A DNA stretch of 31,840 nt from the IMG/VR virus record IMGVR_UViG_3300034039_000027, positions 1 through 31,840 of that record. One strand, 5' to 3'. This DNA is from a virus. Within the stretch, counting starts at the first letter, position 1. The number at the start of each line of letters is the position of its first letter. The notes under the pieces were generated by a model. The model did not search any database. It was given only the letters and a program-made list of their open reading frames with translations, and was not told the origin of the DNA. The position numbers and the translations under genes are program-made. Of this stretch, positions 6,610-24,252 are shown one piece after another.

Positions 6610-7018
6610 GGTATTTCTTGGCAATATGGTAAAATTTTTTGTGGTTATTTTTCAACAATTGTAAAATATTGTGTTTCAATTACTTGTAACTTTCGTGGTT
6701 TCGTGTAATTCCCGTTACCACGTTCAATCCCGCATCAGCATTGGGCTGAACCGCAAAACCACTTTGACCCCTATACTCTTTTTCTTTTATATATATACCC
6801 CCTTTTCTTCTTTCTATTTTTTACTTTACTCTTTTATAAAAAAAAGTGGATTTATGGAAAAAGAAATATTAAAGTATTGATTTACAATTAATTAGCGTTA
6901 CCACTTCCGATACCACTTAATGCCACGACGCCGTGAAATAGATAGATGTTGCAACATATAATGTTGTAACACGTATTTTTGTTTAAAATTAAAGTGGCAA
7001 CATATATAAGTTTTTTTT
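6610..7018. promoter_or_regulatory. Divergent control region, possible origin
   Basis: No credible gene lies in this ~410-bp stretch between the two arms. It contains two TGTTGyAACA dyads at 6947-6956 and 6962-6971, 15 bp apart. ACCACTT-type motifs recur: TACCACTT at 6899-6906 and 6911-6918, ACCAC at 6717 and 6758, and inverse copies at 6641, 6695, 6844 and 6992. There is a pyrimidine-rich AT tract at about 6775-6840. The layout suits regulator binding and possibly replication initiation. A 69-codon plus-strand frame here has no promoter or plausible protein. Confidence 0.6.
6947..6971. promoter_or_regulatory. Twin TGTTGyAACA operator-like dyads
   Basis: TGTTGCAACA (6947-6956) is a perfect palindrome and TGTTGTAACA (6962-6971) a near-perfect copy 15 bp on. 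They lie just upstream of the late box and -7 element of the packaging promoter, so a bound repressor or activator would control the start of the rightward arm. A third degenerate copy, GTGGCAACA, is at 6994-7002. Confidence 0.6.
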
Positions 7019-7026
7019 TATATTTG
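6979..7026 (+). promoter_or_regulatory. Late promoter PL1 (packaging genes)
   Basis: The -7 element TATATTTG is at 7019-7026 and an upstream TTGTTTAAAA box is at 6979-6988, with a 30-nt gap. There is no canonical -33 TTTG. The ATG at 7032 is only five bases after the -7 element, so the transcript would be leaderless or nearly so. Confidence 0.75.
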
Positions 7027-7031
7027 TGAGT

Positions 7032-7487
7032 ATGGACATTAATAAAATCTATTCAATAGCGATTGATTACATTAACCAAAAGACCGACAGGGTATTTGCT
7101 ACCGGTAATAGAGTAACCCGTGAGCTAGTAGAGGCAGCACCTGTATTATCACACTTTATTTATATTTTCTTGCCTCAGAAATTGGGTGTTACAAAGGACC
7201 AGCGGAGAGAATGGACCGATGAAATCAATAACTTTTTTAAAGACCATCCGGAGGACCTTGAAAAGCTTAGAACGTTATTCAGGGCTAAATTAGAGTGGAT
7301 GGTTGCGAATGACAACGTGTCTAAGTTCTTAGAATTGGTTGAGATTAACGGAAACACGCTTGAAAACCTAACGAAAAACGAAAATAAGGGCTTTTTAACA
7401 AGGTTAATCCCTGATTTAAGAAAACCTAACGAAAAAGAAAATGATAGCGATTACAACCGCGCTGGAACGGATAGCAAAGATGCATAA
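7032..7487 (+). CDS. Possible terminase small subunit
   Basis: The first rightward gene encodes 151 residues (MDINKIYSIAIDYINQK...), mainly helical with a polar, probably disordered C-terminus (KPNEKENDSDYNRAG). No canonical small-terminase HTH can be seen, so the call rests on position: it directly precedes and overlaps the large terminase by 47 bases. ATG 7032 is chosen over GTG 7026 because the latter overlaps the -7 promoter element. Other roles, for example a small head-associated protein, remain possible. Confidence 0.5.
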   Translation: MDINKIYSIAIDYINQKTDRVFATGNRVTRELVEAAPVLSHFIYIFLPQKLGVTKDQRREWTDEINNFFKDHPEDLEKLRTLFRAKLEWMVANDNVSKFLELVEINGNTLENLTKNENKGFLTRLIPDLRKPNEKENDSDYNRAGTDSKDA

Positions 7488-8595
7488 GCGTATCCGGGTT
7501 GTTCAGGGCGGGGCGAGAGCCGGAAAAACTTACGCTATAATGATGCTGTTGATTGACGAGGCAATGAACAGAAAAGTGAAGATAGACGTTTTTTCAATCT
7601 CTCTTCCCCACTTACGAAGGGGGGCAATGTTTGATTTTAAGGAGATAATGATGGACTTGGGAGAATATAACGAAAAAAACCATAATAGGAGCGAACACTT
7701 TTATAAGTTCCCGAACGGCTCATTAATAACGTTTATCTCAGCAGACCAGCCGGCGAAACTTCGGGGTTCTAAAAGGGACATTGCGTTCATTAACGAGGCT
7801 AACCTTATGAGCGTAGAGCATTACTCCCAAATTATACAAAGGACTAACGAATATATTTATATTGACTTCAACCCTACAAACCGGTTTTGGGCTCATGACG
7901 AGTTAGAGGCACGAGCAGACGTAGAGTTTTTAAAGCTAACGTATAAAGATAACGAGGCGTTGCCTGATGAGATAAAACGGGAGTTTGACGCTATTAAGAA
8001 AAAAGCCGAAACGTCGGAGTATTGGTCCAACTACTGGCGGGTTTACGGACTTGGAGAACTTGGAACGCTTGGCGGTCTTGTCTTTGGGAACTGGCAAACG
8101 GCTAACGAAATCCCGGAATATGCGGAGCTTATCGGTTACGGGATTGACTTTGGGTTTTCAAATTCCCCGACCGCTTGCGTAGAGCTTTATAAAGCAGATG
8201 GTTGTTTATATGTTAATGAGTTACTTTATAGAAAGCACATGAGCCCATCAGAAATCTTTGCAATTCTAAACGGACACGTTGATATGACTGCGTTGGCAGT
8301 TGGAGATACGAGTGATAGAATGGTAATTAAAGAGTTACAAAAAATGGGGTGGGTGGGTTTAAGACCGGCAATTAAAATGTCTGTGATTGAAGGGATTGAG
8401 TTGTTGAAAAGTGAGGAAATTTACATAACTAAAAAAAGTGTAAATTTGATAAACGAATTTAAAAATTATATGTATAAGACCGACAGGGACGGCAATTACA
8501 TTAACGAGCCTATCAAGGACTACGACCACGGAATTGATGCATTACGTTATATATTCACATATGAGAAATTCTCACGAAAACTAAAAGTATTATGA
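7441..8595 (+). CDS. terL: Terminase large subunit
   Basis: This 384-residue protein is the packaging motor. Residues 22-30 (QGGARAGKT) are the Walker A motif. The Walker B segment is DIAFINEAN (113-121) with E119 as the catalytic glutamate, and the following strand has IDFNPTN (141-147). The C-terminal RNase-H-like nuclease shows GIDFGFS with D236, VGDTSD with D289, and DHGIDALRY (362-370). The Walker B carries N where most families have D before the glutamate, which is not rare in this group. ATG 7441 is preferred to 7480 because TTALERIxxxxKRI before the P-loop fits the family. The stop overlaps the portal start as ATGA. Confidence 0.93.
   Translation: MIAITTALERIAKMHKRIRVVQGGARAGKTYAIMMLLIDEAMNRKVKIDVFSISLPHLRRGAMFDFKEIMMDLGEYNEKNHNRSEHFYKFPNGSLITFISADQPAKLRGSKRDIAFINEANLMSVEHYSQIIQRTNEYIYIDFNPTNRFWAHDELEARADVEFLKLTYKDNEALPDEIKREFDAIKKKAETSEYWSNYWRVYGLGELGTLGGLVFGNWQTANEIPEYAELIGYGIDFGFSNSPTACVELYKADGCLYVNELLYRKHMSPSEIFAILNGHVDMTALAVGDTSDRMVIKELQKMGWVGLRPAIKMSVIEGIELLKSEEIYITKKSVNLINEFKNYMYKTDRDGNYINEPIKDYDHGIDALRYIFTYEKFSRKLKVL
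8401..8448 (+). promoter_or_regulatory. Possible late promoter PL2 inside terL
   Basis: A TTGTTGAAAA box (8401-8410) is followed after 30 nt by TAAATTTG (8441-8448), the same geometry as PL1. It lies within the coding sequence of terL, about 143 bp before the portal gene, and could boost portal and head expression. Because both parts are also ordinary codons, it is less certain than the intergenic sites. Confidence 0.5.
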
Positions 8596-9683
8596 TTGAA
8601 AAAATAAAAAATTGGTTTAGAAAAAAAGGGCTTATCGTTATTAATACAGCCGGTTTCTTATCAAATTCAAGCTATACAATTAAAGGTAATCCATATCTTT
8701 ATGCGGTTATTAATTTAATTGTTAGAAATGTTCACAGGTTGGAATTAGCAACGATAAACGCAAACAACGGAAATGAAGTAGATAACAGAGTAACAGAATT
8801 GATAAAACAGCCAAATCCATTCCAAAATTGGAGGTTATTTTTTGAAAAGCTGCTTGCGGATAAGTTGGAAATCGGGAATGCTTATATTTTAGTTAGTCGT
8901 GGAGTGGGCGATAAACCGGCAAGGTTAGATATTGTTCAGGACGCAGACGTTAGAATTGAAAACGAGGAATACTTTTATAAAGGTCAGAAAGCGGAAATAA
9001 TACACATAAAAAATTGGTTAGTTGGAGATGACGGAAAGGCGTTAAGTCCGATAAAAATCGCAAAAGAGATATTAAAAACTTCGTCAGAATTACAAAGGCA
9101 GACAGCCGATGCGGTAAGTTCTGCGGGAAAAAGTGGGATTGTGTATATAGACGGAGATAATGTGATTGTTGATGATACAGCAAAAAGCGAGATAAAGGAA
9201 GCGATTAATGACAGGGGGCGTTTTACTATCGTTAATAATAAAGTTGGTTTTATTAATACAAGTTTGAAAGTTAGTGATTTAAGCACGATTGAGCTTGGGA
9301 AAATGACGTTAAGGGATATTTGCAACATTTACGGCGTCAATTCGAAGTTATTAAACGACCCGGAAAATACAACGTATAATAACATGAACGAGGCAAAGCG
9401 GGGCTTATTAGAGAACGTGTTCATACCGGAAATAGAGCAAATCGTAGCAGAAATAAATAACTTTTTATTAAGAGAATTTAAAAATGAAAATACAATTATT
9501 AAGTTAAATTATTCAAAATTTACAGAGTTGGAGAAAGACAAATCAGCGTTAATCAATTCCTTGCAAAATGCTTGGTATATGACCCCGAACGAACGCAGGG
9601 CTTTACTTGGGTTGCCGCCCGTTGACATTCCAGAAGGAAACCAAATCCTTGTTCCGTCTAACCTAATCCCGATGGACGAATGA
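8592..9683 (+). CDS. Portal protein, HK97/SPP1-like
   Basis: The 363-residue product is the dodecameric channel at the capsid vertex. It has portal-type segments: NPYLYAVINLIVRNV (residues ~33-47), LIKQPNPFQNWRLFFEKL (~70-87), GNAYILV, and a C-terminal helical region (EAKRGLLENVFIPEIEQI, then MTPNERRALLGLPPV near the end). The length is on the short side for HK97-type portals but complete. It sits between terL and the Mu-F-like head gene and overlaps each by four bases, so the three are translationally coupled. Confidence 0.9.
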   Translation: MIEKIKNWFRKKGLIVINTAGFLSNSSYTIKGNPYLYAVINLIVRNVHRLELATINANNGNEVDNRVTELIKQPNPFQNWRLFFEKLLADKLEIGNAYILVSRGVGDKPARLDIVQDADVRIENEEYFYKGQKAEIIHIKNWLVGDDGKALSPIKIAKEILKTSSELQRQTADAVSSAGKSGIVYIDGDNVIVDDTAKSEIKEAINDRGRFTIVNNKVGFINTSLKVSDLSTIELGKMTLRDICNIYGVNSKLLNDPENTTYNNMNEAKRGLLENVFIPEIEQIVAEINNFLLREFKNENTIIKLNYSKFTELEKDKSALINSLQNAWYMTPNERRALLGLPPVDIPEGNQILVPSNLIPMDE

Positions 9684-10402
9684 GCGATTTAGTTACTTTT
9701 AATACGTTTGAAAGAAACAGGAAAAGGTTTCAGAAAAGAGCTGTTAATGAAATTTATAACGAATTTTTGGCAATTACCGAAAATCTAACCTTTGAACACC
9801 CCGACGACGTGGAAAGGTTACAGCCGTTCAGCGAGGAAGTATTAAAAAAAATCCAGTTAAGAGTAGGCAGTTTCTTTGCGAATGCGACGTATAAAAAACT
9901 AACCAATAAAAAGGGAATGTTTAAAAGTGACGAGGACTTTTGGGAAATGTTAGTTAGTCAGCATATTGATTTGCGAAATGCAACGATTTTAAAGGGGATT
10001 AACGATTACACAGCAAATAAAATTCGTGAGTTTTTCATTCAGGCAGCCAAACAGGGATTGTCAATTCAGGATACGGCAAGGTGGGTAAAAAAGAAATATA
10101 AAACAATTAGTTATAATAGAGCAAAGCGGATAGCAAGGACGGAAATCATTTCAGCAAGTAATTTCGGTAGCATCGCAGGAGCGAGGGCGACGGGTTTAGC
10201 CGTTAAAAAAAAGTGGATACCAACGCAGGATAGCAGGACAAGGGACTGGCACGAGCTGAGCAATATACAGAAACCAACGGCGGAACTTGACGAACCATTT
10301 ATCGTTATGGGTGAGGAGTTAGATTATCCGGGCGATTATCGGGGGAGTGCGTCAAATGTAGTAAATTGCCGTTGTGCAGTTGGTTATATTACGGGGTTAT
10401 AA
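9680..10402 (+). CDS. Mu-F/SPP1-gp7-like minor head protein
   Basis: The C-terminal half of this 240-residue protein carries the family signature: IARTE (151-155), DSRTRDWH (184-191), DYPGDYRGS (215-223) and VVNCRC (227-232). Members are minor capsid proteins associated with the portal and needed for a productive head or DNA ejection. The N-terminal half is helical and charged. Its start overlaps the portal stop as ATGA. About 50 bases separate it from the protease gene, and that gap contains a late promoter. Confidence 0.88.
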   Translation: MSDLVTFNTFERNRKRFQKRAVNEIYNEFLAITENLTFEHPDDVERLQPFSEEVLKKIQLRVGSFFANATYKKLTNKKGMFKSDEDFWEMLVSQHIDLRNATILKGINDYTANKIREFFIQAAKQGLSIQDTARWVKKKYKTISYNRAKRIARTEIISASNFGSIAGARATGLAVKKKWIPTQDSRTRDWHELSNIQKPTAELDEPFIVMGEELDYPGDYRGSASNVVNCRCAVGYITGL

Positions 10403-10404
10403 AA

Positions 10405-10451
10405 TTGTTGAAAAAACGGGTAAAAATATATTTTATTTATTTATAAATTTG
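10405..10451 (+). promoter_or_regulatory. Late promoter PL3 (protease and capsid)
   Basis: The TTGTTGAAAA box (10405-10414) lies 29 nt upstream of the -7 element TAAATTTG (10444-10451). No TTTG is found at the usual -33 position. The ATG at 10457 is five bases after the -7 element, exactly as at PL1, again implying a leaderless mRNA for the protease. Confidence 0.75.
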
Positions 10452-10456
10452 TGATT

Positions 10457-11101
10457 ATGAGAACAAAAAATCAGGTTATATTAAAATGGCAAGGGGGTGA
10501 AGTAAAAGACCTTGACCTCAAAAAGCGAACCGTAACCGGTTATTTTGCGAAATTTGAAACCATAGATTCAGAAGGGGACGTATTCGTTAAAGGTGCTTTT
10601 AAAAAGTCAATTGAGGAGAGCTTTAAACGAATAAAGCATTTACTTCACCACAATTTCACGCACCCGGTAGGAGCAATTAAAAGGTTAGAAGAGGACGATT
10701 TTGGTTTATATTTTGAAAGTTATATACCTGAGACACAAGCGGGAGATGAATTATTAAAGATGTATGACGCAGGAATTTATAACGAACACTCAGTAGGGTT
10801 TAGGCTAATCAAAGGAGAAAGCACGAAAGACGCATATTTGATTAAAGAGGTTCAACTCTTTGAGGGCAGCACAGTTACATGGGGAGCAAATTCAGAAACT
10901 CCGTTTTTAGGGTTTAAAGACTTACAAGAAATTACTAACCTAAAAGATAAAAACGATTTTTTAATTGTAATAACCGCTTTAAAGGACTTGTTAGAAAAGA
11001 ATTCCCCATCACTTACCGGCAATGAAAAACCGCAAACCGATGAGGAAGTGAAGGAATTTCTAACGAGGATTGATAAAGCATTAAAGAAGTTTAACCAATA
11101 A
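10457..11101 (+). CDS. Prohead maturation protease (U35/S78 type)
   Basis: This 214-residue serine protease cuts the capsid delta domain during head maturation. It shows the family pattern: VTGYFAKFETIDSEGDVF near the N-terminus, LLHHNFTHPVGAI with catalytic His65, EHSVGF with Ser112, and EVQLFEGSTVTWGAN. The start is taken at ATG 10457, because GTG 10451 overlaps the last base of the -7 element. It lies directly before the major capsid gene, as in HK97-like phages. The C-terminal ~50 residues are charged and may contact the scaffold. Confidence 0.9.
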   Translation: MRTKNQVILKWQGGEVKDLDLKKRTVTGYFAKFETIDSEGDVFVKGAFKKSIEESFKRIKHLLHHNFTHPVGAIKRLEEDDFGLYFESYIPETQAGDELLKMYDAGIYNEHSVGFRLIKGESTKDAYLIKEVQLFEGSTVTWGANSETPFLGFKDLQEITNLKDKNDFLIVITALKDLLEKNSPSLTGNEKPQTDEEVKEFLTRIDKALKKFNQ

Positions 11102-11112
11102 AAATTAATAAA

Positions 11113-12255
11113 ATGGAAGTAAAAGAACTAAACAAACTTGCTGAAAAGTTAGAAAGCAAAATCGAAGACATTTTTAAAAAGTCAGAAGAACAAGGCGAAC
11201 TAACGACTAATTTAAAAGAAGAGCTTGAAAAAACGCAAGGCGAATTAAAAGAGGTTACAAAGTCGCTCAACGATTTACTAACTAAAAAAGAGTCGGAAAA
11301 AACCGCTCATTTGATTGTAAAAAATGAGGACTTAGAACCGATTATCAAAAAGGACAGACAAGCCGTTCAATTGGACGTTAAAGCGGACATGCTTATCTCT
11401 TCTCACTTTACCGGCGATGTTATCCAGCCTCAAAGAATTGAAGGGATTTTTGCAGATCCGAACAAGTCATTCCACTTACGGCAAATTCTACCTATTTTAA
11501 ATGTAAACTCAAAAACAGTTGAATTTACACAAGAAGATACGATAACAGACAATACTAACGTTGTATCGGAAGGTGCGACAGCTCCTCAAAGTGAGATTTC
11601 ATTTAAGTTAGTAAAAAAGAGCGTTGAAAAGATTAACACTTATGTGAATGTATCACGGGAAATGCTGGAAGATGCAGAATGGATTTCGTCTTATATCAGA
11701 ACCCGTTTAGGTGATAAATTGTTAGTTAAGGAAGACCAACAAATTCTGTATGGAAACGGAACAAGCCCGCAAGTAGAGGGGATTACAACTGTAGCACAGG
11801 CGTATGCAGATGCTTTGGCAGACTCAAATGTAACGATTTTTGACGTTCTGTTGATGGCAAGCAAGCAAGCCACGCAATTGGAATACGCTCCGGATTTTGC
11901 ATTAGTTAGTTTTGAAGACTATTACAAGATGCTTTTAAGCAAGGACGGAAACGGGGCTTTTGTTGTGCCACAGGCTGTATTTGGAGGACAAGAGGTTAGA
12001 TTAGGCGGACGTATCCGGATTATTCCTACAACAGCGTTGAGCGGTAATGATTTCATCGTGGGAGATTTCCGAAGAGGTGCTGCATTAGGGTTGAAAAAAG
12101 ACGTTACATTAACGATTTCGGCTGAGAACTCTACCAATGTAATTGACGGAAAAGTAACGTTATTGTTAGAGGAAAGAATTGTTGTACAAAACTACCGACC
12201 AAACGCATTTGTATATGGAGATATGGCGTCAGCATTAGCGCTTGGAACTGCCTAA
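11113..12255 (+). CDS. Major capsid protein, HK97 fold with N-terminal delta domain
   Basis: Residues 1-~65 are a long charged coiled coil (LEEELEKTQ-type repeats) that fits the scaffolding delta domain removed by the protease. The capsid fold begins near residue 95 (ISSHFTGDVIQPQRI). It contains TVEFTQEDTITDNTNVVSEG, YVNVSREMLEDAEWISSYI, a QQILYGNGTSPQVEGI segment and, near the C-terminus, ERIVVQNYRPNAFVYGD, all usual in this family. At 380 residues it is of normal length. A strong terminator follows 30 bases after the stop, which ends the head transcription unit before the accessory cassette. Confidence 0.93.
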   Translation: MEVKELNKLAEKLESKIEDIFKKSEEQGELTTNLKEELEKTQGELKEVTKSLNDLLTKKESEKTAHLIVKNEDLEPIIKKDRQAVQLDVKADMLISSHFTGDVIQPQRIEGIFADPNKSFHLRQILPILNVNSKTVEFTQEDTITDNTNVVSEGATAPQSEISFKLVKKSVEKINTYVNVSREMLEDAEWISSYIRTRLGDKLLVKEDQQILYGNGTSPQVEGITTVAQAYADALADSNVTIFDVLLMASKQATQLEYAPDFALVSFEDYYKMLLSKDGNGAFVVPQAVFGGQEVRLGGRIRIIPTTALSGNDFIVGDFRRGAALGLKKDVTLTISAENSTNVIDGKVTLLLEERIVVQNYRPNAFVYGDMASALALGTA

Positions 12256-12284
12256 GGTGTTTTTTTCATAGTTTTATGGTTTTT

Positions 12285-12312
12285 AGAGGGCTTTTTAGCC
12301 CTCTTTTTTTTT
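12285..12312 (+). terminator. Intrinsic terminator after the major capsid gene
   Basis: A perfect 8-bp stem, AGAGGGCT (12285-12292) and AGCCCTCT (12297-12304), with a TTTT loop is followed by a run of nine T (12304-12312). It separates the head genes from the glycosyltransferase cassette. Confidence 0.93.
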
Positions 12313-12319
12313 ATAAAAT

Positions 12320-12349
12320 TTTGTAGTTTGAAAATAATGTTTATTTTTG
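12320..12349 (+). promoter_or_regulatory. Promoter of the accessory cassette
   Basis: The -33 TTTG (12320-12323), an 18-nt spacer and the -7 element TATTTTTG (12342-12349) match the host-type promoter. The TTGTTnAAAA late box is absent here. It starts just after the capsid terminator, 20 nt before ATG 12370. Confidence 0.75.
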
Positions 12350-12369
12350 CCTAAAATAAAACTAACAAT

Positions 12370-12699
12370 ATGTTTTTATTCAAAAGGTATCTTGGAGAAA
12401 AAAATCATAAATATAACCCTCAAATTGATGAGGTGTGCAGGTTTATATTAGAGAATGACCCAATAGAAGTGATAAAAGAAAGCCCATATAGAGAAAAATA
12501 TGTATATAATGATATTACTATAAATATGTGGACGGCGAATAAATGGTATGCTTTTATGTCGCATGGGAGTGTCGTATTAAATAAAAATAACAAAAAAATA
12601 TTTTCATGGAGTTATGAAATGCCGTCAAGGAAAATGATTTATTTGATGAGAAAAAGGTTGCCTGAAATTACGAAAAAGGTTTTGAATAATAAAAAATAA
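12370..12699 (+). CDS. Hypothetical protein, 109 residues, start of accessory cassette
   Basis: No family is recognised. The protein is basic and rich in aromatic residues (NMWTANKWYAFMSHGS, KIFSWSYEMPSRKMIY) and ends KKVLNNKK. It has no signal peptide or membrane segment. It is the first gene behind the cassette promoter and precedes the DnaA-domain-like gene by 15 bases. Its codon use appears more AT-rich than that of the capsid gene, in line with a separately acquired cassette. Confidence 0.65.
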   Translation: MFLFKRYLGEKNHKYNPQIDEVCRFILENDPIEVIKESPYREKYVYNDITINMWTANKWYAFMSHGSVVLNKNNKKIFSWSYEMPSRKMIYLMRKRLPEITKKVLNNKK

Positions 12700-12714
12700 A
12701 GGTTATATCCTCAA

Positions 12715-12984
12715 ATGTGCAACCAAATTTTTCAATATTGGCAAGACAAAGGAATTGATATAACTAACTCGCAAAGGCGGACATTAAAGAGGAGTTGGGC
12801 GAAGATTGCGGTTTGTTATTACCTTTATAAGATAAAAGGATATTCGTTATGTAAGGTTAGGGATATTTTGGGTTATAAAAACCACTCATCAGTAATTTAT
12901 TGCATAAATCAGCATAAGATATTAAGCGAATATGATAAACTTTACAGGTTATTTATTTACGAATTTAAAAACAAATTCCTGTGA
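12715..12984 (+). CDS. DnaA domain IV-like DNA-binding protein
   Basis: Most of this 89-residue protein resembles the C-terminal DNA-binding domain of DnaA. It has a long helix with RSWAKIAVCYYLYKI (residues 26-40), then GYSLCKVRDILGYKNHSSVI (42-61). The SL..VRDILGY part corresponds to the DnaA helix-turn-helix and KNHSSVIYCI (55-64) to its (R/K)DHSTV signature. The nucleotide-binding AAA+ domain is absent, so it cannot be a full initiator. It may bind DnaA-box-like DNA, either to hijack or block host initiation or to regulate transcription. The GTG of the next gene overlaps its stop. Confidence 0.7.
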   Translation: MCNQIFQYWQDKGIDITNSQRRTLKRSWAKIAVCYYLYKIKGYSLCKVRDILGYKNHSSVIYCINQHKILSEYDKLYRLFIYEFKNKFL

Positions 12985-13553
12985 AACTCTGGACAATTGG
13001 AATACTAACGATTAAAGGCAGGGAGCAATTATTAAAACGTTGCCTTAATTCGTTAGATTTCAGGCGGATACCTTCAAACGTTGAAATTCTAATCGTATTT
13101 AATAAGTCAATTAAAGAAGGGCGTAATTACGTATTAGAGAATGCAAAGGGAAAATTCGTTAGTTTTATAGATGACGATGATTTCGTTGCGGATGATTACG
13201 TTCCGGAGATTTTAGACGTTATAAAAACAAAGGAATATATTGATGCGGTTGCATTCAAAGGGAAAATCAGGTTCAACGGCGGGGCGTGGTTTAACGTTAT
13301 ATATGGGCATAAGATAGACAAGAACGCAATTGAGATGACAAGACCCGTATATTACCGGCGATTAAATCATATATGCGTAATTAAGAAAGATATTTTAAAA
13401 GGTTATCAATTCACAGAAGATTATGGTGAGGATATAGACCTTGCAAACTATCTATCAAAGGAAAAACTAAATACTTGTTTCATCAATAAAACGTTATATT
13501 ACTATGACTTCCGTACTAAACCGATTAGCCATTATTCCAAGTCTGACAATTAA
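12981..13553 (+). CDS. GT-A family 2-like glycosyltransferase
   Basis: The 190-residue protein has the GT2 layout: an N-terminal strand (WTIGILTIKGREQLLKRCLN), EGRNYVLENAKGKFVSFIDD with a DDDD metal-binding stretch at 64-67, and a GEDIDLANYL motif (149-158) in the place of the usual acidic catalytic ED. It would transfer a sugar from a nucleotide donor. It starts at GTG 12981, overlapping the preceding stop (GTGA), and ends inside the next glycosyltransferase. The short length means only the catalytic domain is present. Acceptor and sugar are unknown; capsid or tail decoration is inferred from its place. Confidence 0.8.
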   Translation: MKLWTIGILTIKGREQLLKRCLNSLDFRRIPSNVEILIVFNKSIKEGRNYVLENAKGKFVSFIDDDDFVADDYVPEILDVIKTKEYIDAVAFKGKIRFNGGAWFNVIYGHKIDKNAIEMTRPVYYRRLNHICVIKKDILKGYQFTEDYGEDIDLANYLSKEKLNTCFINKTLYYYDFRTKPISHYSKSDN

Positions 13554-14190
13554 TGACGAGCTTTTAGACTTATTAACAACGACAATTAAAACGTTAGATT
13601 GCTATTGCGTAGTTATAGAGAGCGGAGAAATTGAAAGGTCAAAACCGTTAGAAAAAGAATTTAATGTAGAGGTTATAAAATACAACGGGGGAAAGTTTAA
13701 TTATAATAAGGCGTTAAATCAGGGCGTTGCACACGTAAATAATAGGCTTGCAGATAATAGTTATATTTTATTTTCAAATAACGACGTAATTTATCCCCCT
13801 AAATTTTGGGATGATATAATTAACGTTATGAAACACCACCACGCAGAAGTGGCAAGTCCAAGAGATGTAATTACTGACGAATTAAGGGGAAGACCTATTT
13901 TTGGGCTAAAAACTGGAATACATTTTAAAGGATATTCGTTTATTATGAAATATAAAACTTATAGAGCGATTGACGGGTTTAGGGAAAACACATGGTTTTA
14001 TTGTGCAGATAACGAAGTCGTAGAGCAACTAAAAGAAAAAGGTTATAAATGCCTACTAACAGACGTTTATGTGCATCATTTATGCAGTAAAACGCATAAG
14101 TATTTAAACGAAAAAATGTTATTAAATTTCACGATTGAGAGCGTAAAGGTATTTAACAGGAAATATAACAAAAAAATCTTTGGATTATGA
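13504..14190 (+). CDS. Second GT-A family 2-like glycosyltransferase
   Basis: This 228-residue protein shows KFNYNKALNQGV (64-75), a donor-binding LFSNNDVIYP with the NND triplet at 92-94, and FRENTWFYCADNEVVEQLKEKG (about 159-180), a pattern seen in GT2 enzymes. It is not a close copy of the first GT-A enzyme. Its ATG lies 50 bases inside the upstream gene; no later start keeps the first strand. Its stop overlaps the next start as ATGA, so the cassette is tightly coupled. Confidence 0.8.
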   Translation: MTSVLNRLAIIPSLTINDELLDLLTTTIKTLDCYCVVIESGEIERSKPLEKEFNVEVIKYNGGKFNYNKALNQGVAHVNNRLADNSYILFSNNDVIYPPKFWDDIINVMKHHHAEVASPRDVITDELRGRPIFGLKTGIHFKGYSFIMKYKTYRAIDGFRENTWFYCADNEVVEQLKEKGYKCLLTDVYVHHLCSKTHKYLNEKMLLNFTIESVKVFNRKYNKKIFGL

Positions 14191-14741
14191 AAGTAATTAC
14201 AGGAGCCGGGCGTTGTTATTCGTCATTTATAACGTTATTAATTCAAAAAGCTGGCGGAGATGTTGGCGGGATTAAATACCGATGGTTTGACAAAATAAGG
14301 GCGGGAATGGAACATGCAAAGTTTGCAGAACTTAACGAAAAAATATTAAACGAAACACACGACTTAAAGGAATTGAAAGAGTTTGACCCCGGTTGCGAAA
14401 TTGTGAAAGACCCCCGTTTTATCTTCACTGCTGGCGAATGGTTAAAGGTTAGAAATGACTTTGAAGTGTTGTTATTGAAAAGAGATACAGACGAACAATA
14501 CATTAGCATGTTAGACAGCAAAATCAGAATGTTATCTTTATTTGAAAATCCGCACGATATAGGGTATAAAATAAATAAGTTTAAAGAGTTAATGATTAGT
14601 AATAACATAAAAGTATTGGAGTTAGAAGTTCCGGGATGCTTTGATAATTTAGTAACGACTTCATTAACACTATTAAATAACGGATATATTAAAAACCCAA
14701 ATCAATTCATTCAAAACTTTTTTATGTTATGGGCGAAATAA
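14187..14741 (+). CDS. Sulfotransferase-like P-loop protein
   Basis: The 184-residue protein begins with a strand and a loop GAGRCYSSFIT (6-16) that fits the PAPS-binding loop of sulfotransferase-like proteins (often G.GRSGTS). It then has IVKDPRFIF (72-80) with the conserved K-x-PR arrangement and FEVLLLKRD (92-100). These are the landmarks of a compact sulfotransferase fold. Flanking glycosyltransferases suggest that it may sulfate or otherwise modify a glycan. The loop Tyr-Ser in place of Gly-Thr is unusual, so a nucleotide-binding protein of other function is possible. Its C-terminus overlaps the start of the next gene by 13 bases. Confidence 0.62.
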   Translation: MKVITGAGRCYSSFITLLIQKAGGDVGGIKYRWFDKIRAGMEHAKFAELNEKILNETHDLKELKEFDPGCEIVKDPRFIFTAGEWLKVRNDFEVLLLKRDTDEQYISMLDSKIRMLSLFENPHDIGYKINKFKELMISNNIKVLELEVPGCFDNLVTTSLTLLNNGYIKNPNQFIQNFFMLWAK

Positions 14742-15640
14742 AAAATGTTCTAATTGTAGCACCCCACTACTTGCCATTTAAGTATTCAGGGGGAGAAACG
14801 TATTTGCATCAATTAGTTAGAAATATACAAGACGATTACAAGATTTACGCTTTTATTTACAGGAATAATGATAATATAAGCAGGTTTGAAAAAGTAACAT
14901 TTATTAATGACGTTTATTCAGTCGAGCCGGACATAATCATTTCGCAATTGGGCGGAGTTGGTTTGGGTTGTAATTTGAAACGCAGGTGGAAAAAGGCAAA
15001 GCATATCCATATCGTTCATAATTCTAACCATTTTGACCAGCTAAACTATTATTGCGATGTAGTAATTTATAACACTTATTGGCTTAAAGATTATCACAGA
15101 TATAAAGTTGAAAGTTATGTAATTCACCCACCTTTGCGAGATGAAGTAACCAGCTCATTGTCTTATCCGTTAGGGAAATACATAACGATGATTAACTTAA
15201 ACGAAAACAAAGGCGGTTACTTATTCCGTGAGATAGTCAAGCAGATGCCTGACAGACAATTCCTTACCGTTAAGGGCGGTTACGGAGAGCAGATAATACC
15301 GGAAGGAGATAACGTCAAAGTAATTGAAAACGGAGAATGGGAAATAACGAAAATCATAAAAAACACGCATACGTTATTAATGTTAAGCAAATACGAGAGT
15401 TACGGAATTACAGCCGTTGAGTTTGCATATCACGGAAGGCGGGTAATTGCTACAAATACACCGGGATTAAGGGAAAGCGTGGGAGCTGTTGCATATTTCG
15501 TAGATAGAGACGTCGCACAAGTAGTTAATACAATTAAACAACCTTACGAAATAAAAAGGTTAGAATTTAACAGCGAATTGGAAAACAAAAAATTTAGAAT
15601 GTTAATAAATCAGCTAACAGAAAACAAAATAAATACTTAA
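14729..15640 (+). CDS. GT-B family 4-like glycosyltransferase
   Basis: The 303-residue protein has a two-domain GT-B layout. The N-terminal domain carries the APHYLPFKYSGGETYLHQLV segment (11-30), the glycine-rich acceptor loop typical of GT4 enzymes. The C-terminal domain has MINLNENKGG (154-163), and E223 and E231 form the E-X7-E motif in KYESYGITAVE. The enzyme would be a retaining sugar transferase. It is the last gene of the cassette; connectors resume 20 bases downstream. The target is unknown. Working together, the three transferases could build a short glycan on virions or on the host surface. Confidence 0.82.
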   Translation: MGEIKNVLIVAPHYLPFKYSGGETYLHQLVRNIQDDYKIYAFIYRNNDNISRFEKVTFINDVYSVEPDIIISQLGGVGLGCNLKRRWKKAKHIHIVHNSNHFDQLNYYCDVVIYNTYWLKDYHRYKVESYVIHPPLRDEVTSSLSYPLGKYITMINLNENKGGYLFREIVKQMPDRQFLTVKGGYGEQIIPEGDNVKVIENGEWEITKIIKNTHTLLMLSKYESYGITAVEFAYHGRRVIATNTPGLRESVGAVAYFVDRDVAQVVNTIKQPYEIKRLEFNSELENKKFRMLINQLTENKINT

Positions 15641-15660: not shown

Positions 15661-15828
15661 ATGAAACAGGTAAAAGCAATTAAAACATTTACAATTCCTG
15701 AAAAAGGGCTTGTCAAAGAAGGCGAAAAATTCGAAGTTACAAATGAAAGAGCAAAGGCATTGCAAGATGCTGGCTTGGTAATAATTTTGAAAATTGAAAA
15801 GCCACAGATAACCAAAAAAGGTAAATAA
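15661..15828 (+). CDS. Small head-tail region protein, 55 residues
   Basis: This gene encodes MKQVKAIKTFTIPEKG at its start and contains VKEGEKFEVTNERAKALQDAGLV. Short proteins of this form occur just before the head-tail connector gene in many phages. They look like a single SH3-like or beta-strand unit followed by a helix. The stop overlaps the next start as TAATG, supporting translation. Function is unknown; a head-decoration or neck role is possible. Confidence 0.75.
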   Translation: MKQVKAIKTFTIPEKGLVKEGEKFEVTNERAKALQDAGLVIILKIEKPQITKKGK

Positions 15829-17066: not shown

Positions 17067-17479
17067 AAAAGAAATCCGCAAGCTTTGAGTTACGTAAGGT
17101 AATTTTTGAACGGTTAAATGCCGTTGGAATAACGTTATACACGACAGCACCGAACGAACCTATTTATCCAATCGCTCAATTAGAAAGCGTTAGTTTTGTA
17201 GATAGTTCTGACAAGACGGAATTTAACGATATTGCAGAGGTTGAAATACAAATATTAGATAGATTTAACATTGGAACAGCGACTTGGAACAACATTGACA
17301 CGCTTGCGGAAACGATTATCGGGGAAATCGTGGACAGGGGGAATTACTTATCATTAACCGGTTGGAAGGTTGTTACTTCTAAACTGGCGAGCGACTTTGC
17401 AACGAAGTTTAGCAATGAAGGTTATATTTACTTAATTAGGACATTACGTTTTGAGTTTTTTGTTGAAAACTTAATATAA
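17063..17479 (+). CDS. Tail terminator/completion protein (DUF3168-like)
   Basis: The 138-residue product begins with SFELRKVIFERLNAVGITLY and has PIYPIAQLESVSF followed by EVEIQILDRFN. This matches the small alpha/beta fold of tail terminator proteins that cap the tail tube and join it to the neck. Its place right before the major tail protein gene agrees. Sequence similarity in this family is weak, so the family name is tentative. Confidence 0.72.
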   Translation: MKKKSASFELRKVIFERLNAVGITLYTTAPNEPIYPIAQLESVSFVDSSDKTEFNDIAEVEIQILDRFNIGTATWNNIDTLAETIIGEIVDRGNYLSLTGWKVVTSKLASDFATKFSNEGYIYLIRTLRFEFFVENLI

Positions 17480-17506
17480 AAGAAATTTGTTTATTAATTA
17501 CATTTG
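17460..17506 (+). promoter_or_regulatory. Late promoter PL4 (tail genes)
   Basis: The TTGTTGAAAA box (17460-17469) lies 29 nt upstream of the -7 element TACATTTG (17499-17506). There is no -33 TTTG at the standard position. The box falls on the last codons of the tail terminator gene. Four bases after the -7 element a mini reading frame, ATG TTA AAC TAA, occurs before the true start at 17535. Confidence 0.75.
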
Positions 17507-17534
17507 TAGTATGTTAAACTAAAAACTAACAAAA

Positions 17535-17933: not shown

Positions 17934-18265
17934 TAACGATTAAAGGGAAGAAATACCACTTTAAATTCGGAATTAACGCTGCTGACTTATATTGCGAACT
18001 CCGGAAATGTGATTTAAACAAATTCCAAGAGGACGTCAGTTCGTTATCTAACGGAAAAATTAATATAGGCGTGTTCCGTGATTTGATTTGGGCTTGCATT
18101 AAAGCGGGTGAATTATCGGCAGGAAATGATTTTGAATATAACAATTTTCAGGTTGGTGATTTGCTTTCAGAAATGACGAATAAAGAATTTGAGCAAATCA
18201 TTAACGAGATAGGCAAGCAAGCAGCCGGTAATGAAAAAAAAAGGGCGGTGAAGACGAAATCATAA
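17930..18265 (+). CDS. Tail assembly chaperone, short form (gpG-like)
   Basis: The 111-residue protein lies between the tail tube and tape-measure genes, the invariable place of the tail chaperone. It is helical (AADLYCELRKCDLNKFQEDV). Near its end nine consecutive A (18234-18242) precede GGG, a slippery site where a -1 shift enters the downstream frame. Frameless translation ends after KRAVKTKS. The chaperone coats the tape-measure protein during tail assembly. Confidence 0.82.
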   Translation: MITIKGKKYHFKFGINAADLYCELRKCDLNKFQEDVSSLSNGKINIGVFRDLIWACIKAGELSAGNDFEYNNFQVGDLLSEMTNKEFEQIINEIGKQAAGNEKKRAVKTKS

Positions 18266-18570
18266 CGAGAAAATATACATTAGATGATATTAAGGTGATT
18301 TTATTAGCATTTGGAATAGGTATTAACGAAATAAAGCATCTCACTTGGAGGGATGCTTTTTTAGTTATTAAAGCGTATGAGAAAAGGCAAGAGGATAACT
18401 GGCGAATTGCACGTGAAATCATCGCTGCGATTTATAACACAGTGTCTAAAAAGAAATACAAGGGGCGTGATATAGTTAGTTTATCAAGCGATAAAATCAC
18501 GTATGACGTGGATACTTTGGTTAAATTACAAGAACGTTATAAAAAACTTGCGGAAAAATGGCAAAATTAG
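17930..18570 (+). CDS. Tail assembly chaperone, -1 frameshift product (gpGT-like, about 213 residues)
   Basis: If the ribosome slips -1 at A AAA AAA within 18235-18241, reading resumes at 18241 with AAG GGC GGT GAA. It continues without a stop to 18570 and adds about 109 residues. The added part includes LGIGINEIKHLTW-like and DAFLVIKAYEKRQEDNW segments. The downstream frame has no good start of its own (only GTG 18295), its upstream codons back to the A-run are open, and it overlaps the tape-measure start by 13 bases. This is the classic arrangement of siphovirus tail chaperones. Confidence 0.8.
18234..18242 (+). promoter_or_regulatory. Slippery A9 frameshift site
   Basis: Nine A, read in zero frame as GAA AAA AAA AGG, allow tandem tRNA-Lys slippage to -1. 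Both frames are open across it and the two chaperone parts flank it. No downstream stimulatory structure was sought by calculation. Confidence 0.78.
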
Positions 18571-21164
18571 AAGAATTACTTATATCGGTAAAGGGCGACC
18601 TTTCGGATTTTGATGCGAAAATGAAAAAGTTAGATAAGTCGGTTGATGACTTATCTAAACGGATGCAGAAGGTAGGGTCAAATCTAACTAAATTTGTAAC
18701 ATTACCATTAACCGGTATTGGAGCGGGGGCGGTATTGACTGCCGGAAAGTTTGAGCAATTGGAAATTGCATTTAAGACAATGACCGGAAGTGCTGAGGAG
18801 GGGGCAAAGGTTTTTGAAAGGTTAAAAAAATTCAGTGCAGAAACCCCGTTTCAATTAGAAGATATAGCGAAGGCGGAAAAGATATTACTTGCTTTTAAGT
18901 TTTCAACCGAAGAATCGCTTGATAGTTTAAAATTCTTGGGTGATATAGCAGCGGGGACGAATGTGCCAATTGCAGACCTTGCCCAAATTCTTGGGAAAGT
19001 AAAAGCCAAAGGAAAGGCGATGACTGAGGAAATAATGCAGTTGGCGGAGCGTGGAATACCGATAATTGACGTATTAGCGGAAAGGTTTAACGTTAGTAAA
19101 GAAGCAATTCTGGATATGGCGTCAAAAAGCCAAATCAGTTTTGACGTCGTGAAAGACGCATTAAAGTCAATGTCAGAGGAAGGTGGAACGTTTGAGGGGA
19201 TGATGAAAAGCCAAAGCCAGTCAATTCTTGGGCTATTTTCCACGTTGAAAGACAACGTAGTAATTGCAATGGCGGAAATGGGTAACGCAATTGCGGAAAC
19301 GCTTAACTTAAAAGAAGTAATCCCAAAATTAACTTCATTAATTAATTCGTTAGTTGAGAAATTCAAAAATCTGTCAGAACCGGCGAAACGGATGATTGTA
19401 ATTTTCGGCGGAATTGCTGCTGCCGTTGGTCCCGTGATGTTAGCCGTAGGAAAACTACTACCATTTATAACTAATAACTTTACTGGGATTGTAAAGGTTG
19501 TAAAAACGTCAATGAACGCAATTAAATTAGTAATGGCAGGAAACCCATTCGGACTGCTTGCCGTTGCCGTTGCTACCGTTGCCGGTGTGATTATTGCGAA
19601 TTGGGACAGGATAGTTGACTATTTTACGAAGGGCGAAGGGGTGGCGTTTTTTAATACGTTTAAGGCAGTAATTAGTAATGCTTGGGAAACAATTAAAGAC
19701 ATATTTCAAGGTGCTTTTAATTTAATTTTGAAAATAGCGGGGAATTTTTACAACATTCTGCGGGACATGGGGGATGTGTTCGCAGGTTTATTTACAGGAG
19801 ATTGGCAACAATTAGCAAACGGACTTTTGAATATATGGAAAAGGTTATTTTCAATTATTTTGGACGTTCTGGAATGGGCAGTAACTAACGTGTTAAAGTT
19901 AGTGGGCAAATTAGTCAGCGTTTTTGATAAGGACTGGGGAAATGCAATTAATAAGGCGGTTGATAGTATAAAAGAATTTAGGAAAGGAATTGATAAATAT
20001 TTCAAATTAGAAGACGTCCAGAAAGAGGCAGAAGATACGGCCAAGACGATTGAAACGAAATTAATCCCATCTGTAAAAGAAACCGAAAAAGTTATAAAAA
20101 GCACAGGGAAAGCCGTAAATTCGTTAGTTGAAGGGCTGGAAAAAGTAAATAAATTACAAGGAAAAAAGATAGATATTCAGATTGACGCGAAATTAAGCCA
20201 AAGGCAAGGGGGGGTAGATTTAAATGTAACGAAATTTGAAGATAAACAATTTGAGTTTATCAATAAACTAAAAAATTCGTTTGATACAATTACAAAGAGC
20301 GTTCTCCCTGCTTTTGGAAATGCAATGTTTTCATTAGGACAGACGATTTTTTCTAACATAAAATTCGGCGATAGCTTAATGGCATTCGCACGTGGAGACG
20401 TTATCGGAGGTTTGATTGGTGGTTTTCAAGAGGTTATAAATTCAAGTCAGGCGTTCAAGGATTTATTCGGCTTTATTAATGAAAGCATCGGTAAATCCCT
20501 TGCGAAATTAGAGCCCTTGTTTTCAAAACTAACAAATAGCATGAAGCCGTTGGGAAAGATAATGGGGAAATACGCACAAATAATGGGGAAAATACTTAAT
20601 GATATACTAACGCCATTAGTTCCTATATTTATGCAATTGTTTAAAAATAGCGTTAGAATGATGGGATTGTTTGCAGAATTAGCACCTACAATTGGGGAGG
20701 TGTTAGCGGCGTTATTTGAGTTATTTATTCCAATACAAGAGTCGTTTATTCCTATCATACAGCTATTAATACCTGTAATTAATTTATTATTAAAAGCGTT
20801 AGTCCCGTTAATACAGCTGATAAACTTAATTCTAACACCAGTTATAAAAGCATTAGCGTTTGTAATGTTAATGGTTATTGGGGCAATTATAACGTTCGTA
20901 AATGCAGTGATTGATTTAATTAATAACGTTCTACCAAAAGATAAAAAAATAGAAAAGTTATCAATCCCGGAAATCCCCGCACTTGCACACGGGGGAATTG
21001 TAACCGCCCCCACAATTGCACAAGTAGGAGAAGCGGGACCAGAGGCGGTAATTCCGTTGAGTAAGTTAGATAATATGATGAATAAAAACGTTAGTTTTGT
21101 CATTCGTGGCGACAGGTTAATCGGAGTAGAAGCACGAGCTTATGAACGTTTAAGTAGATTTTAA
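18558..21164 (+). CDS. Tape-measure protein
   Basis: This 868-residue protein sets tail length; by the usual ~0.15 nm per residue, a tail near 130 nm would be expected. The N-terminal ~250 residues are of the tape-measure N-terminal type (LPLTGIGAGAVLTAGKFEQL, FSAETPFQLEDIAKAEKILL, AERGIPIIDVLAERFNV). Hydrophobic segments follow (MIVIFGGIAAAVGPVML; LLAVAVATVAGVIIANW), and a helical middle. A C-terminal hydrophobic region leads to ALAHGGIVTAPTIAQVGEAG and PEAVIPL, a motif very common at tape-measure C-termini. Large minus-strand open frames here are antisense shadows. Confidence 0.93.
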   Translation: MAKLEELLISVKGDLSDFDAKMKKLDKSVDDLSKRMQKVGSNLTKFVTLPLTGIGAGAVLTAGKFEQLEIAFKTMTGSAEEGAKVFERLKKFSAETPFQLEDIAKAEKILLAFKFSTEESLDSLKFLGDIAAGTNVPIADLAQILGKVKAKGKAMTEEIMQLAERGIPIIDVLAERFNVSKEAILDMASKSQISFDVVKDALKSMSEEGGTFEGMMKSQSQSILGLFSTLKDNVVIAMAEMGNAIAETLNLKEVIPKLTSLINSLVEKFKNLSEPAKRMIVIFGGIAAAVGPVMLAVGKLLPFITNNFTGIVKVVKTSMNAIKLVMAGNPFGLLAVAVATVAGVIIANWDRIVDYFTKGEGVAFFNTFKAVISNAWETIKDIFQGAFNLILKIAGNFYNILRDMGDVFAGLFTGDWQQLANGLLNIWKRLFSIILDVLEWAVTNVLKLVGKLVSVFDKDWGNAINKAVDSIKEFRKGIDKYFKLEDVQKEAEDTAKTIETKLIPSVKETEKVIKSTGKAVNSLVEGLEKVNKLQGKKIDIQIDAKLSQRQGGVDLNVTKFEDKQFEFINKLKNSFDTITKSVLPAFGNAMFSLGQTIFSNIKFGDSLMAFARGDVIGGLIGGFQEVINSSQAFKDLFGFINESIGKSLAKLEPLFSKLTNSMKPLGKIMGKYAQIMGKILNDILTPLVPIFMQLFKNSVRMMGLFAELAPTIGEVLAALFELFIPIQESFIPIIQLLIPVINLLLKALVPLIQLINLILTPVIKALAFVMLMVIGAIITFVNAVIDLINNVLPKDKKIEKLSIPEIPALAHGGIVTAPTIAQVGEAGPEAVIPLSKLDNMMNKNVSFVIRGDRLIGVEARAYERLSRF

Positions 21165-21174
21165 TTAATTAGTT

Positions 21175-24100
21175 ATGGCATACGCAGAGAAGTATTATCA
21201 CAATTTCACGGCAGCAGATGACACCCCCTACCGCTTTTCAATTGAGGAGCGGGATTTCACGGGAACAGCAGCAGAAATAAAAATGGGAGATGAGCCGGTG
21301 CGTATTCGTTATAAGCCAATCGGGGACGACAGGTTGCCATTCGCAAAACTATCGTCTTTGGATTTCAGCGTATATGCGGAGAGCGATTTTCAGTATAGGG
21401 ATTTACTAACTACCGACGAAGAAAAATATATCGTTAAATTAATAAACAGAAATACGAATAAGGTTGTTTGGCATGGGTGGTTATTAGCCGATAGTATGCA
21501 AGAAAGTTATATTTCACCCCCTTATACCATAGAGTTTACGGCGGTTTGTGGGCTGACGAGATTACGAAACATTGACTTTTTAGATAGTTCCGGGAATTTT
21601 TTTGAAGGAAAAAAAACGTTAATTGAGTTAATCGGTATTTGCCTGCAAAAGACGAGCGTTGACAAATTCCAGTATATAAAAGAAAGCGTAGTAACGAAAA
21701 CCAACCAATACTCCTATGCAGCTAACGGCGAGTTTTCAAGCACGTTTCGGGTTATTCAATTAAAAAGGGAGTTATTCCGGAAGATAAAAAACGACGAAAC
21801 AAAGCCGTATAATTGTCTGGAAGTATTACAGGAAATTCTAACCCCTTTTCGTTGTCAGATATTCCAAGCGTTTGACCCCCAAGAAAATTCGTTAGTTTGG
21901 CGAATACGGGAAATAACGGACATTGCAACGGATAACCCCTACCGGATTTGGACGATGGGTGGTGTTTATGTGAGCGAAGGCACGACTAACGAAATTCTGC
22001 AAATGGGTTCGACTGCGAACAGGTCCGACTTTCACTGGATAGAAGGCGGGCAGGTGATGAATTTATCACTATTTAGAAGGCGTGCGGAAGTGCATTTGAA
22101 ATATAAGTATTGGGAAGATATTGCTAACTTTTATAATTTTAATAGTCCGGAATGGGATGAGAATGTATTAATTAATTACACGACTTTTGGTGGATTTTTA
22201 TATGAAAAAAATAACAAAGAAAGTGTGACATATAAGGGGAAAGAGTGTAGGGCTTTGAATATAATTCCTCAATCCTATTATTATTACGCAAATATAGAAC
22301 ACAACGGGATAAGGATAACCCCTTCATTCGTTGGTGAGCCTTTTTCGTTAAAAGTCGTTCATGGGCACGCAAGTCATTTAACATTTTGGAACCCGCCTTA
22401 TGTAATATTAAAATTTAACGACGGAACGACTGATTACTGGCTAACCAATAATGACCACCCCAATCCATATACATGGGACACAACATTTTATGAACCATAT
22501 ATGCTGCACCCACTTGACGATACAATTCAGTGGACATTTCCATCGGAGGGAACTTTATATGTTAGTTTTACTTCCCCATTATCGCCTTATTCTTCGCAAA
22601 CAGGACAATATGAAGATAATGAGCCCTACTGGCTTTTTGCGTGGGACATTAACGGGGGAAGCGCAGGGGAGAATTTGGAAGAAAAGGTATATATTGCGGA
22701 AATACAAGGAAATACGGCGGAGAATTTAACGTTAGATATAATCATTGGGGACACCAGTAACGACGGCTCATTAAGTCAATTAGAAACGATTGACGGCGTT
22801 AATACAAGCACTTGGAACTCAACGGGGGGTAGTATGTTGGAATTAGGTCAGTTGTTGGCGAATGATTTATTACGTTTAAATTACGGATTAAAAAAACAAA
22901 TGGACGGGGTGCTTTGGCGAGGCAGTAACTTATTGCCTCACAATATTATAACCTTTATTGACAACGGAAACACATTATATTGGGACATTTACCAATCGGA
23001 ATGGCTTGTAAAAACTAACTATATTGAGGTTAGTATAAGGGATTTTAAAAGACCTGCAGTGGTAATTCTAACCGCTGATGAACAAATCAATTCTAACAAA
23101 ATCGGCGGAACGCAGATAAGCAACGGAATACCGCCTTCTACAATTGCCACAAAAACGGCAGGGCTTTGGAAAAAAGTTAGTTCGAGTAAGGAAATGTCTG
23201 GCGTTGAATTTAAGGAAATAGACCCAAATCAAGAGCTAAAAGTTAGTTTAACCTCCGCAATAAATGGTTATATTTACATTAAGGACGACCCCTCTACATT
23301 AAAAGAAGGTCAGCAGTTGATGGTGGATGTTACGGGAGGTTCTACGTTACATTTGGGCGGGGGGTTTCGGCAAGATACAAGCGTTGGAACACAAATTACA
23401 GTAGCAAGTAATAGTTTGTTAGTTTTTGAATATGCAAGTGGCGGGTTTGTGTTAGTGAAACAGATTGACCACGCAGATGCATTTGACAGCGATGCATTAG
23501 CATTTTTCAGTGGTTCAAATCTAACGTGGAATGAAAAAATCGCAGTTGATTATTTAGTGAAAAGGTTAAAGCAAGAGGGATATTGGAATGATTTAAGTTA
23601 CATTTATCCGTTAGTAGGGCAAGACCAGACAAGCGTTGAGAAAGAATTAAAGGCGGGGACTAATAATATAACGTTTACAAATTACAACCAATCAACGCAT
23701 TATTCAGAAGTTGGTTTGTTTGCCGACGGCTCATTATACGGCACGATCCCAAATCCAATAAATAGCCAATCTCATAACGTGTTTTTTTACGTTACAAAAG
23801 GAGATTTTGTGGGGAATTTCAGAGATTGCGGGAGTTTTAGCTCATTAAAAGAATTTAGTGTAAACGTTAGAGATAATGTAATCGCAACGCCAGATCAGAC
23901 GTTGTATTATTATGATTCGCCTTCACAATTATTAATGGTTAACTCACCATTCCCAAGCATAGGTTTTTGGAATTTCAGAACGCATGAGCCATCGCCCGGA
24001 AGCTTCGCAAAAGAAATAAGGCAAGATAATAACCTCTTGACTTCGCAAAGTGGGTTGTCAGTAGGGGTATTTGATTTGCCAACATTTGGGTTATTAAATA

Positions 24101-24243
24101 ATTGGGATAATGACTTATCTACTGCTAATAAAATCGTAAATGGCAGGTATTACGGCATATTTTTATTTTCAGAAAACGGAACGCTTTATTCTAACCTTTA
24201 TAATATTGTTAAAAACTACTTGCAAATATTAGCTAGAATATAA
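21175..24243 (+). CDS. Large tail-tip protein (baseplate hub / host specificity)
   Basis: The gene directly after the tape measure encodes 1022 residues. It starts AYAEKYYHNFTAADDTPYRF and has SLDFSVYAESDFQYRDLL and VVWHGWLLADSMQESYI (about 70-110). This N-terminal domain is common in Bacteroidota phage tail proteins, in the place of Dit/Tal proteins of other siphoviruses. Residues ~430-600 have aromatic, beta-rich segments; the last third is rich in Asn, Thr, Ser and Gly, as in receptor-binding parts. Its YYHNF start is repeated at the N-terminus of the LamG-like protein at 24923. It may combine hub and adhesin functions. Confidence 0.8.
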   Translation: MAYAEKYYHNFTAADDTPYRFSIEERDFTGTAAEIKMGDEPVRIRYKPIGDDRLPFAKLSSLDFSVYAESDFQYRDLLTTDEEKYIVKLINRNTNKVVWHGWLLADSMQESYISPPYTIEFTAVCGLTRLRNIDFLDSSGNFFEGKKTLIELIGICLQKTSVDKFQYIKESVVTKTNQYSYAANGEFSSTFRVIQLKRELFRKIKNDETKPYNCLEVLQEILTPFRCQIFQAFDPQENSLVWRIREITDIATDNPYRIWTMGGVYVSEGTTNEILQMGSTANRSDFHWIEGGQVMNLSLFRRRAEVHLKYKYWEDIANFYNFNSPEWDENVLINYTTFGGFLYEKNNKESVTYKGKECRALNIIPQSYYYYANIEHNGIRITPSFVGEPFSLKVVHGHASHLTFWNPPYVILKFNDGTTDYWLTNNDHPNPYTWDTTFYEPYMLHPLDDTIQWTFPSEGTLYVSFTSPLSPYSSQTGQYEDNEPYWLFAWDINGGSAGENLEEKVYIAEIQGNTAENLTLDIIIGDTSNDGSLSQLETIDGVNTSTWNSTGGSMLELGQLLANDLLRLNYGLKKQMDGVLWRGSNLLPHNIITFIDNGNTLYWDIYQSEWLVKTNYIEVSIRDFKRPAVVILTADEQINSNKIGGTQISNGIPPSTIATKTAGLWKKVSSSKEMSGVEFKEIDPNQELKVSLTSAINGYIYIKDDPSTLKEGQQLMVDVTGGSTLHLGGGFRQDTSVGTQITVASNSLLVFEYASGGFVLVKQIDHADAFDSDALAFFSGSNLTWNEKIAVDYLVKRLKQEGYWNDLSYIYPLVGQDQTSVEKELKAGTNNITFTNYNQSTHYSEVGLFADGSLYGTIPNPINSQSHNVFFYVTKGDFVGNFRDCGSFSSLKEFSVNVRDNVIATPDQTLYYYDSPSQLLMVNSPFPSIGFWNFRTHEPSPGSFAKEIRQDNNLLTSQSGLSVGVFDLPTFGLLNNWDNDLSTANKIVNGRYYGIFLFSENGTLYSNLYNIVKNYLQILARI

Positions 24244-24252
24244 TTATATTTG
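24206..24252 (+). promoter_or_regulatory. Late promoter PL5 (adhesion and lysis genes)
   Basis: TTGTTAAAAA (24206-24215) is 29 nt upstream of TATATTTG (24245-24252). A TTG at 24220-24222 could act as a weak -33. The box lies in the last codons of the tail-tip gene. The leader before ATG 24273 is 20 nt. Confidence 0.75.

Follow-up and report, generated by a model that had tools for sequence, protein, structure and literature searches.

The window analysed here is the whole of the IMG/VR virus record IMGVR_UViG_3300034039_000027, a stretch of 31,840 nucleotides. Its two 94-base ends are identical (1-94 = 31747-31840), so that the record probably represents an entire circular genome, ~31.7 kb in size. 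A primase/helicase gene spans the circular junction, running from ~1501 down to 1 and continuing to 30988. The plus strand encodes TerL, portal, head morphogenesis, protease, major capsid, connector, major tail and tape measure proteins, and the minus strand an exonuclease and other early-type genes. Also on the minus strand, at 30194-30475, is the gene of a 93-aa protein with several CxxC pairs, which resembles DnaJ-type or double zinc ribbons. Inserted in the late operon is a cassette (12370-15640) that contains two glycosyltransferase-like genes and has its own canonical -33/-7 promoter at 12342. As a single query, the window TerL retrieved nothing close. It is 42% identical to TerL of Flavobacterium psychrophilum phages, and prophages whose TerL is 40-43% identical to it are present in Flavobacterium genomes. 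The host of the phage is likely a member of the Flavobacteriia.

The initial annotation described a TTGTTnAAAA box at a fixed distance upstream of the late promoters, whose -7 elements read TAnnTTTG. The observation is real, and all positions and gaps of its five plus-strand pairs (30, 30, 29, 29 and 29 nt) proved correct:

6979..6988, plus strand: box TTGTTTAAAA, promoter of the terS/terL module, gap 30 nt
7019..7026, plus strand: -7 element TATATTTG; the ATG at 7032 lies 5 nt 3' of it
8401..8410, plus strand: box TTGTTGAAAA within terL, gap 30 nt
8441..8448, plus strand: TAAATTTG, partner of the box at 8401
10405..10414, plus strand: box TTGTTGAAAA, promoter of the protease/major capsid module, gap 29 nt
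10444..10451, plus strand: -7 element TAAATTTG, with an ATG at 10457
17460..17469, plus strand: box TTGTTGAAAA followed by CT (full host-type TTGTTnAWAACT), promoter of the major tail protein/tape measure genes, gap 29 nt
17499..17506, plus strand: -7 element TACATTTG
24206..24215, plus strand: box TTGTTAAAAA followed by CT (full host-type consensus), promoter of the 24273 module, gap 29 nt
24245..24252, plus strand: -7 element TATATTTG

The four intergenic boxes head the terminase, head, tail and 24273 modules. The core TGTTnAWAA is present at all five plus-strand sites, and the CT extension (AACT) at two of them, 17460 and 24206 only. TTGTTnAAAA occurs six times on the plus strand of the window, and five of these copies stand 29 or 30 nt before TAnnTTTG, where shuffled sequence gives an expectation of 0.01 pairs (0/100 shuffles reach five). 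Over the whole window nine exact boxes were observed against 3.4 expected, an excess close to the number of promoter-linked copies; the other exact boxes (7392 and 28805 on the minus strand, 20637 on the plus strand) are intragenic and have no -7 element. In a test that allows for the post hoc choice of the motif, taking any 10 columns with the register within 1 nt, the four intergenic upstream regions agree in 9/10 aligned columns, and dinucleotide shuffles (n=3000) reached a maximum of seven, once. The spacers differ among these four promoters, so recent promoter duplication does not explain the agreement of the boxes. The pair within terL (8401/8441) falls in a conserved protein-coding stretch; it may be an internal promoter for the portal gene (8592), or due to chance.

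Three promoters of the window carry a -33 element and no box:

5284..5287, minus strand: -33 TTTG of an early promoter, -7 element at 5256-5263, spacer 20 nt
5903..5906, minus strand: -33 TTTG of an early promoter, -7 element at 5875-5882, spacer 20 nt
12320..12323, plus strand: -33 TTTG of the cassette promoter, -7 element at 12342-12349, spacer 18 nt

This agrees with what had been noted for these promoters, in which TTTG stands at 18-20 nt. The reported absence of TTTG at the usual -33 spacing in the five box promoters was likewise borne out, although a TTG stands 22 nt upstream of the -7 element at 24245. Compared with the sigma-ABfr promoter of Bacteroidota (TTTG / TAnnTTTG), the early promoters thus have both parts, whereas the box promoters have the same -7 element, lack a -33 TTTG at 18-20 nt and carry the box ~10 nt further upstream. 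The Flavobacterium johnsoniae study (PMC6847099) places the -7 element at -12 to -5, with starts 4-5 nt later, and describes a weak -33 motif, promoters without it being common; a missing -33 element, on this account, tells little by itself. On the same numbering, the box would span about -51 to -41. At both 7032 (terS) and 10457 (protease) the ATG comes 5 nt after the -7 element, so the late messages starting there are probably leaderless or nearly so. No such box is reported for the promoters of Bacteroides thetaiotaomicron (PMC7366714) or F. johnsoniae (PMC6847099) in the available portions of those papers. The initial annotation knew of no description of the box, and our search of the open-access literature found no paper describing it either.

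A pattern scan of viral contigs with the exact box gave matches which, among those listed, were mostly due to chance and were selected by the box itself. They included phages related through TerL and exonuclease, all of which have the box located between the exonuclease gene and terL. Because these relatives had been selected by the box, sampling was repeated by protein, in a box-agnostic manner. The exact box is missing from most of 107 relatives selected by TerL, a set that is too broad to inform on the box, and the box/-7 pair was not found in phages phi39:1, Fpv5 and hattifnatt. In three sets of phages related by descent, TTGTTnAWAAC(T) stands 28-31 nt upstream of the -7 element in the promoter at the head of the terminase-proximal operon. 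One box-agnostic set consists of the promoters of a gene for an ECF-sigma-like protein (TIGR02937 match at E about 1e-7 to 1e-9, which does not reach the curated cut-off). Here the box, taken as TTGTTnAWAA with no more than one mismatch, stands 28-31 nt upstream of the -7 element in 47 of the 69 distinct promoters. The third set was picked by an 83-aa membrane-type protein and has the box in 47 of its 56 promoters. Conserved box columns lie between variable flanks in promoters of types A, C and D, and the box/-7 pair is mostly single-copy, occurring once in 12 type A genomes, at the promoter of the ECF-sigma-like gene. Conservation of the box with its spacing, which the initial annotation had named as support for its proposal, therefore holds in box-agnostic phage sets.

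In many Flavobacteriia phages the terminase-proximal operon opens with the gene of the ECF-sigma-like protein. The promoter of this gene also carries GATTA-n5-TAATC palindromes, in the spacer and after the -7 element, and in some type C promoters the box is present twice, the additional copy (TTGTTGAAAA) lying ~23 nt downstream of the other and overlapping the -33 region.

Type B and type A promoters of the ECF-sigma-like gene can be aligned: type B reads TTG-N19-TATATTTG and lacks the box, whereas type A has the box and lacks the TTG. When a -33 TTG is counted at 18-20 nt, 45 of the 69 homologous promoters have the box only, 19 the TTG only, two have both and three neither (Fisher 6e-12, a value that ignores descent). 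The TTG-only promoters form two separate groups on the protein tree, which indicates at least two independent switches between box and -33, giving evidence in the same direction. Whether box and -33 exclude each other depends on the spacer lengths admitted, since TTTG is also found at 21-22 nt in some type C promoters. This mutual exclusion backs the earlier suggestion that the box replaces -33 recognition.

The exact TTGTTnAAAA showed no preferred spacing in eight host genomes, and the conclusion of no host use drawn from that search was overturned with the wider core TGTTnAWAAC, for which 10 of 38 matches in six host genomes stand at one single spacing. Across 31 Flavobacterium genomes, 52 of the 73 matches to TGTTnAWAACT lie 27/28 nt before TAnnTTTG with 12 gaps allowed (naive binomial 9e-25, the orthologs not being independent). 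Measured from the end of the 9-mer instead of the 11-mer, this gap is 29/30 nt, exactly the spacing of the window. In 60 Flavobacteriales genomes there were 15 matches at the right spacing against five at shifted gaps, unevenly distributed. The host matches are dominated by two ortholog groups, which we take, from the translated downstream genes as recognised by sequence, to be dnaE and phoH; a further Flavobacterium site precedes what is presumably a 2OG-oxygenase-type gene. In other Flavobacteriales a site precedes a gene that we regard as glmM, and a presumed DUF3127 gene is also found downstream of a host site. In the orthologous dnaE, phoH, glmM and oxygenase promoters the box and its spacing are kept while the spacers diverge, which is the pattern of a functional host element. 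No Rfam family was detected at the host sites. The window boxes are all of the AAAA form, whereas those of the hosts are mostly ATAAC; we treat them as one element on the basis of identical spacing, a common core and interchange of the two forms within type A phages. Two host sites upstream of an alpha/beta-hydrolase gene have the box at a gap of 33, kept between two Flavobacterium genomes.

T-rich and then A-rich intergenic DNA, often past a terminator T-tract, could yield TTGTTnAAAA by accident. The box does often come right after a terminator T-run in relatives, and exact boxes are not rare in A+T-rich phages among the matches listed, but the shuffle tests, the conservation in box-agnostic sets and the spacing peak in hosts contradict such an origin, and we give it hardly any credence. 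Similarity to another known motif was also considered: the reverse complement of the DnaA box TTWTNCACA, TGTGNAWAA, is one base away from TGTTNAWAA, and dnaE is among the box targets. Identity with the DnaA box was dropped, as there is no box-like cluster around dnaA.

The initial annotation proposed that a phage-coded activator reads the box. It would recruit host RNA polymerase to -33-less late promoters, as with P2 Ogr or Mu C, and the boxes at the head of all rightward structural modules, with -33 elements in the early promoters, are what it would lead one to expect. The late promoters of Mu are reportedly activated by phage-coded C. The likeness is that of a late-promoter activator beside a host-sigma promoter; the activator of Mu is phage-coded, whereas none was identified in the window phage. 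In P2, four late promoters have TGT-N12-ACA, which is read by the zinc-finger protein Ogr (PMC3931495). The P2/P4 Ogr/Delta system resembles the window in having several late operons with an upstream activator box at each (PMC3931495), and differs in that the window-type box also serves host genes. TGT-N12-ACA was not found upstream of the window late promoters, nor was the zinc-finger motif CX2CX22CX4C in the six frames of the window.

Candidates for such an activator would be an unrecognised early protein or the product of a gene that stands alone at the early/late junction and adjoins the first late promoter:

6055..6578, minus strand: 174-aa protein, paralogue of the C-terminal part of the primase/helicase (30988-31731, minus strand), E about 4e-15
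6602..6609, minus strand: -7 element TATATTTG, serving the gene at 6055-6578, without TTTG at -33
6649..6658, minus strand: box TTGTTGAAAA, 39 nt (29+10) upstream of the -7 element at 6602-6609

This sixth box promoter thus has its box one helical turn further upstream than the others. The 6055-6578 protein is a possible DNA-binding protein, and its structure model is poor (mean pLDDT 54). It has no detectable relative in phages or in 398 Flavobacteriales genomes. The window phage and the other box phages have only the exonuclease, TerL and a few other genes in common, with no regulator among them, and no gene family tracks the box across promoter types or phage lineages. Some relatives encode a small HTH protein immediately before the box promoter; it was rejected, since it also precedes a box-less type B promoter. 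As the core and the 29/30 spacing are, moreover, enriched in Flavobacterium chromosomes, the proposal of a phage-coded activator is not supported, and we regard it as unlikely. With the same element in hosts and no common phage regulator, a host factor is the simpler explanation.

Such a host factor need not be a separate protein. Bacteroidota RNA polymerase may itself recognise the box, through its alpha C-terminal domain or some other part, as an UP-like element with sequence specificity. Like UP elements the box is A+T-rich and lies in the same upstream region; the position from -51 to -41 suits alpha-CTD contacts, and the box is found in housekeeping host promoters. It differs from UP elements in its sequence-specific core, with a strict GTT and mostly AA(C), and in a spacing fixed to 1 nt within each lineage, which is more like the site of a dimeric protein than an A-tract. 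Direct reading by the polymerase therefore seems to us rather improbable, slightly more so than a phage-coded activator.

The box is probably a host promoter signal used by phages and not a switch private to the window phage. Our main reading, to which we assign a probability of about 0.58, is that it is a promoter element of Flavobacteriia, read by a putative host protein, which phage lineages have adopted for their late operons. The general form would be TTGTTnAWAACT with the core TGTTnAWAA, often as a GTT-N3-AAC palindrome, and would act as the upstream element of one class of Flavobacteriia housekeeping-sigma promoters. We infer that a DNA-binding protein of host origin, bound at about -46, would help RNA polymerase where TAnnTTTG lacks a proper -33 element. 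Host genes including dnaE and phoH would use the box; several phage lineages would place it at the first promoter of the terminase-proximal operon, and the window phage at all four rightward structural modules. Weighing against this reading are the AAAA form of the window boxes, the lack of an exact box in most TerL-selected relatives and the dominance of dnaE and phoH among the host matches. A more specific version has, in our view, a little under even odds: a putative Flavobacteriia transcription factor, whose chromosomal regulon includes dnaE and phoH, would act from a box at ~-46 to activate promoters without -33, and several phage groups only distantly related to one another would have taken up this box for their late or terminase-proximal operons, box and -33 swapping in evolution.

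What is known of promoters in Bacteroidota is chiefly the -33/-7 layout, whose -33 part is difficult to recognise in Flavobacterium. A further element, fixed in position and common to replication/repair-type genes of the host and late operons of phages, would explain promoters without -33. The box would also offer a handle on a global regulator and aid the prediction of late operons in uncultured Bacteroidota phages, and its exchange with -33 in phages amounts to a natural experiment.

The late timing of the box promoters is suggested by gene content only. A constantly active, purely host-made factor alone would not account for it; copy number, other operators or control of the factor could be its source. 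Reading of the box by a host factor is thus compatible with a late switch, and the two are not exclusive. Short palindromic repeats lie around the first late promoter:

6947..6956, plus strand: palindrome TGTTGCAACA, upstream of the terS promoter
6962-6971: repeat of the palindrome, TGTTGTAACA
6995-7002: repeat of the palindrome, TGGCAACA

These are possibly operators of a repressor.
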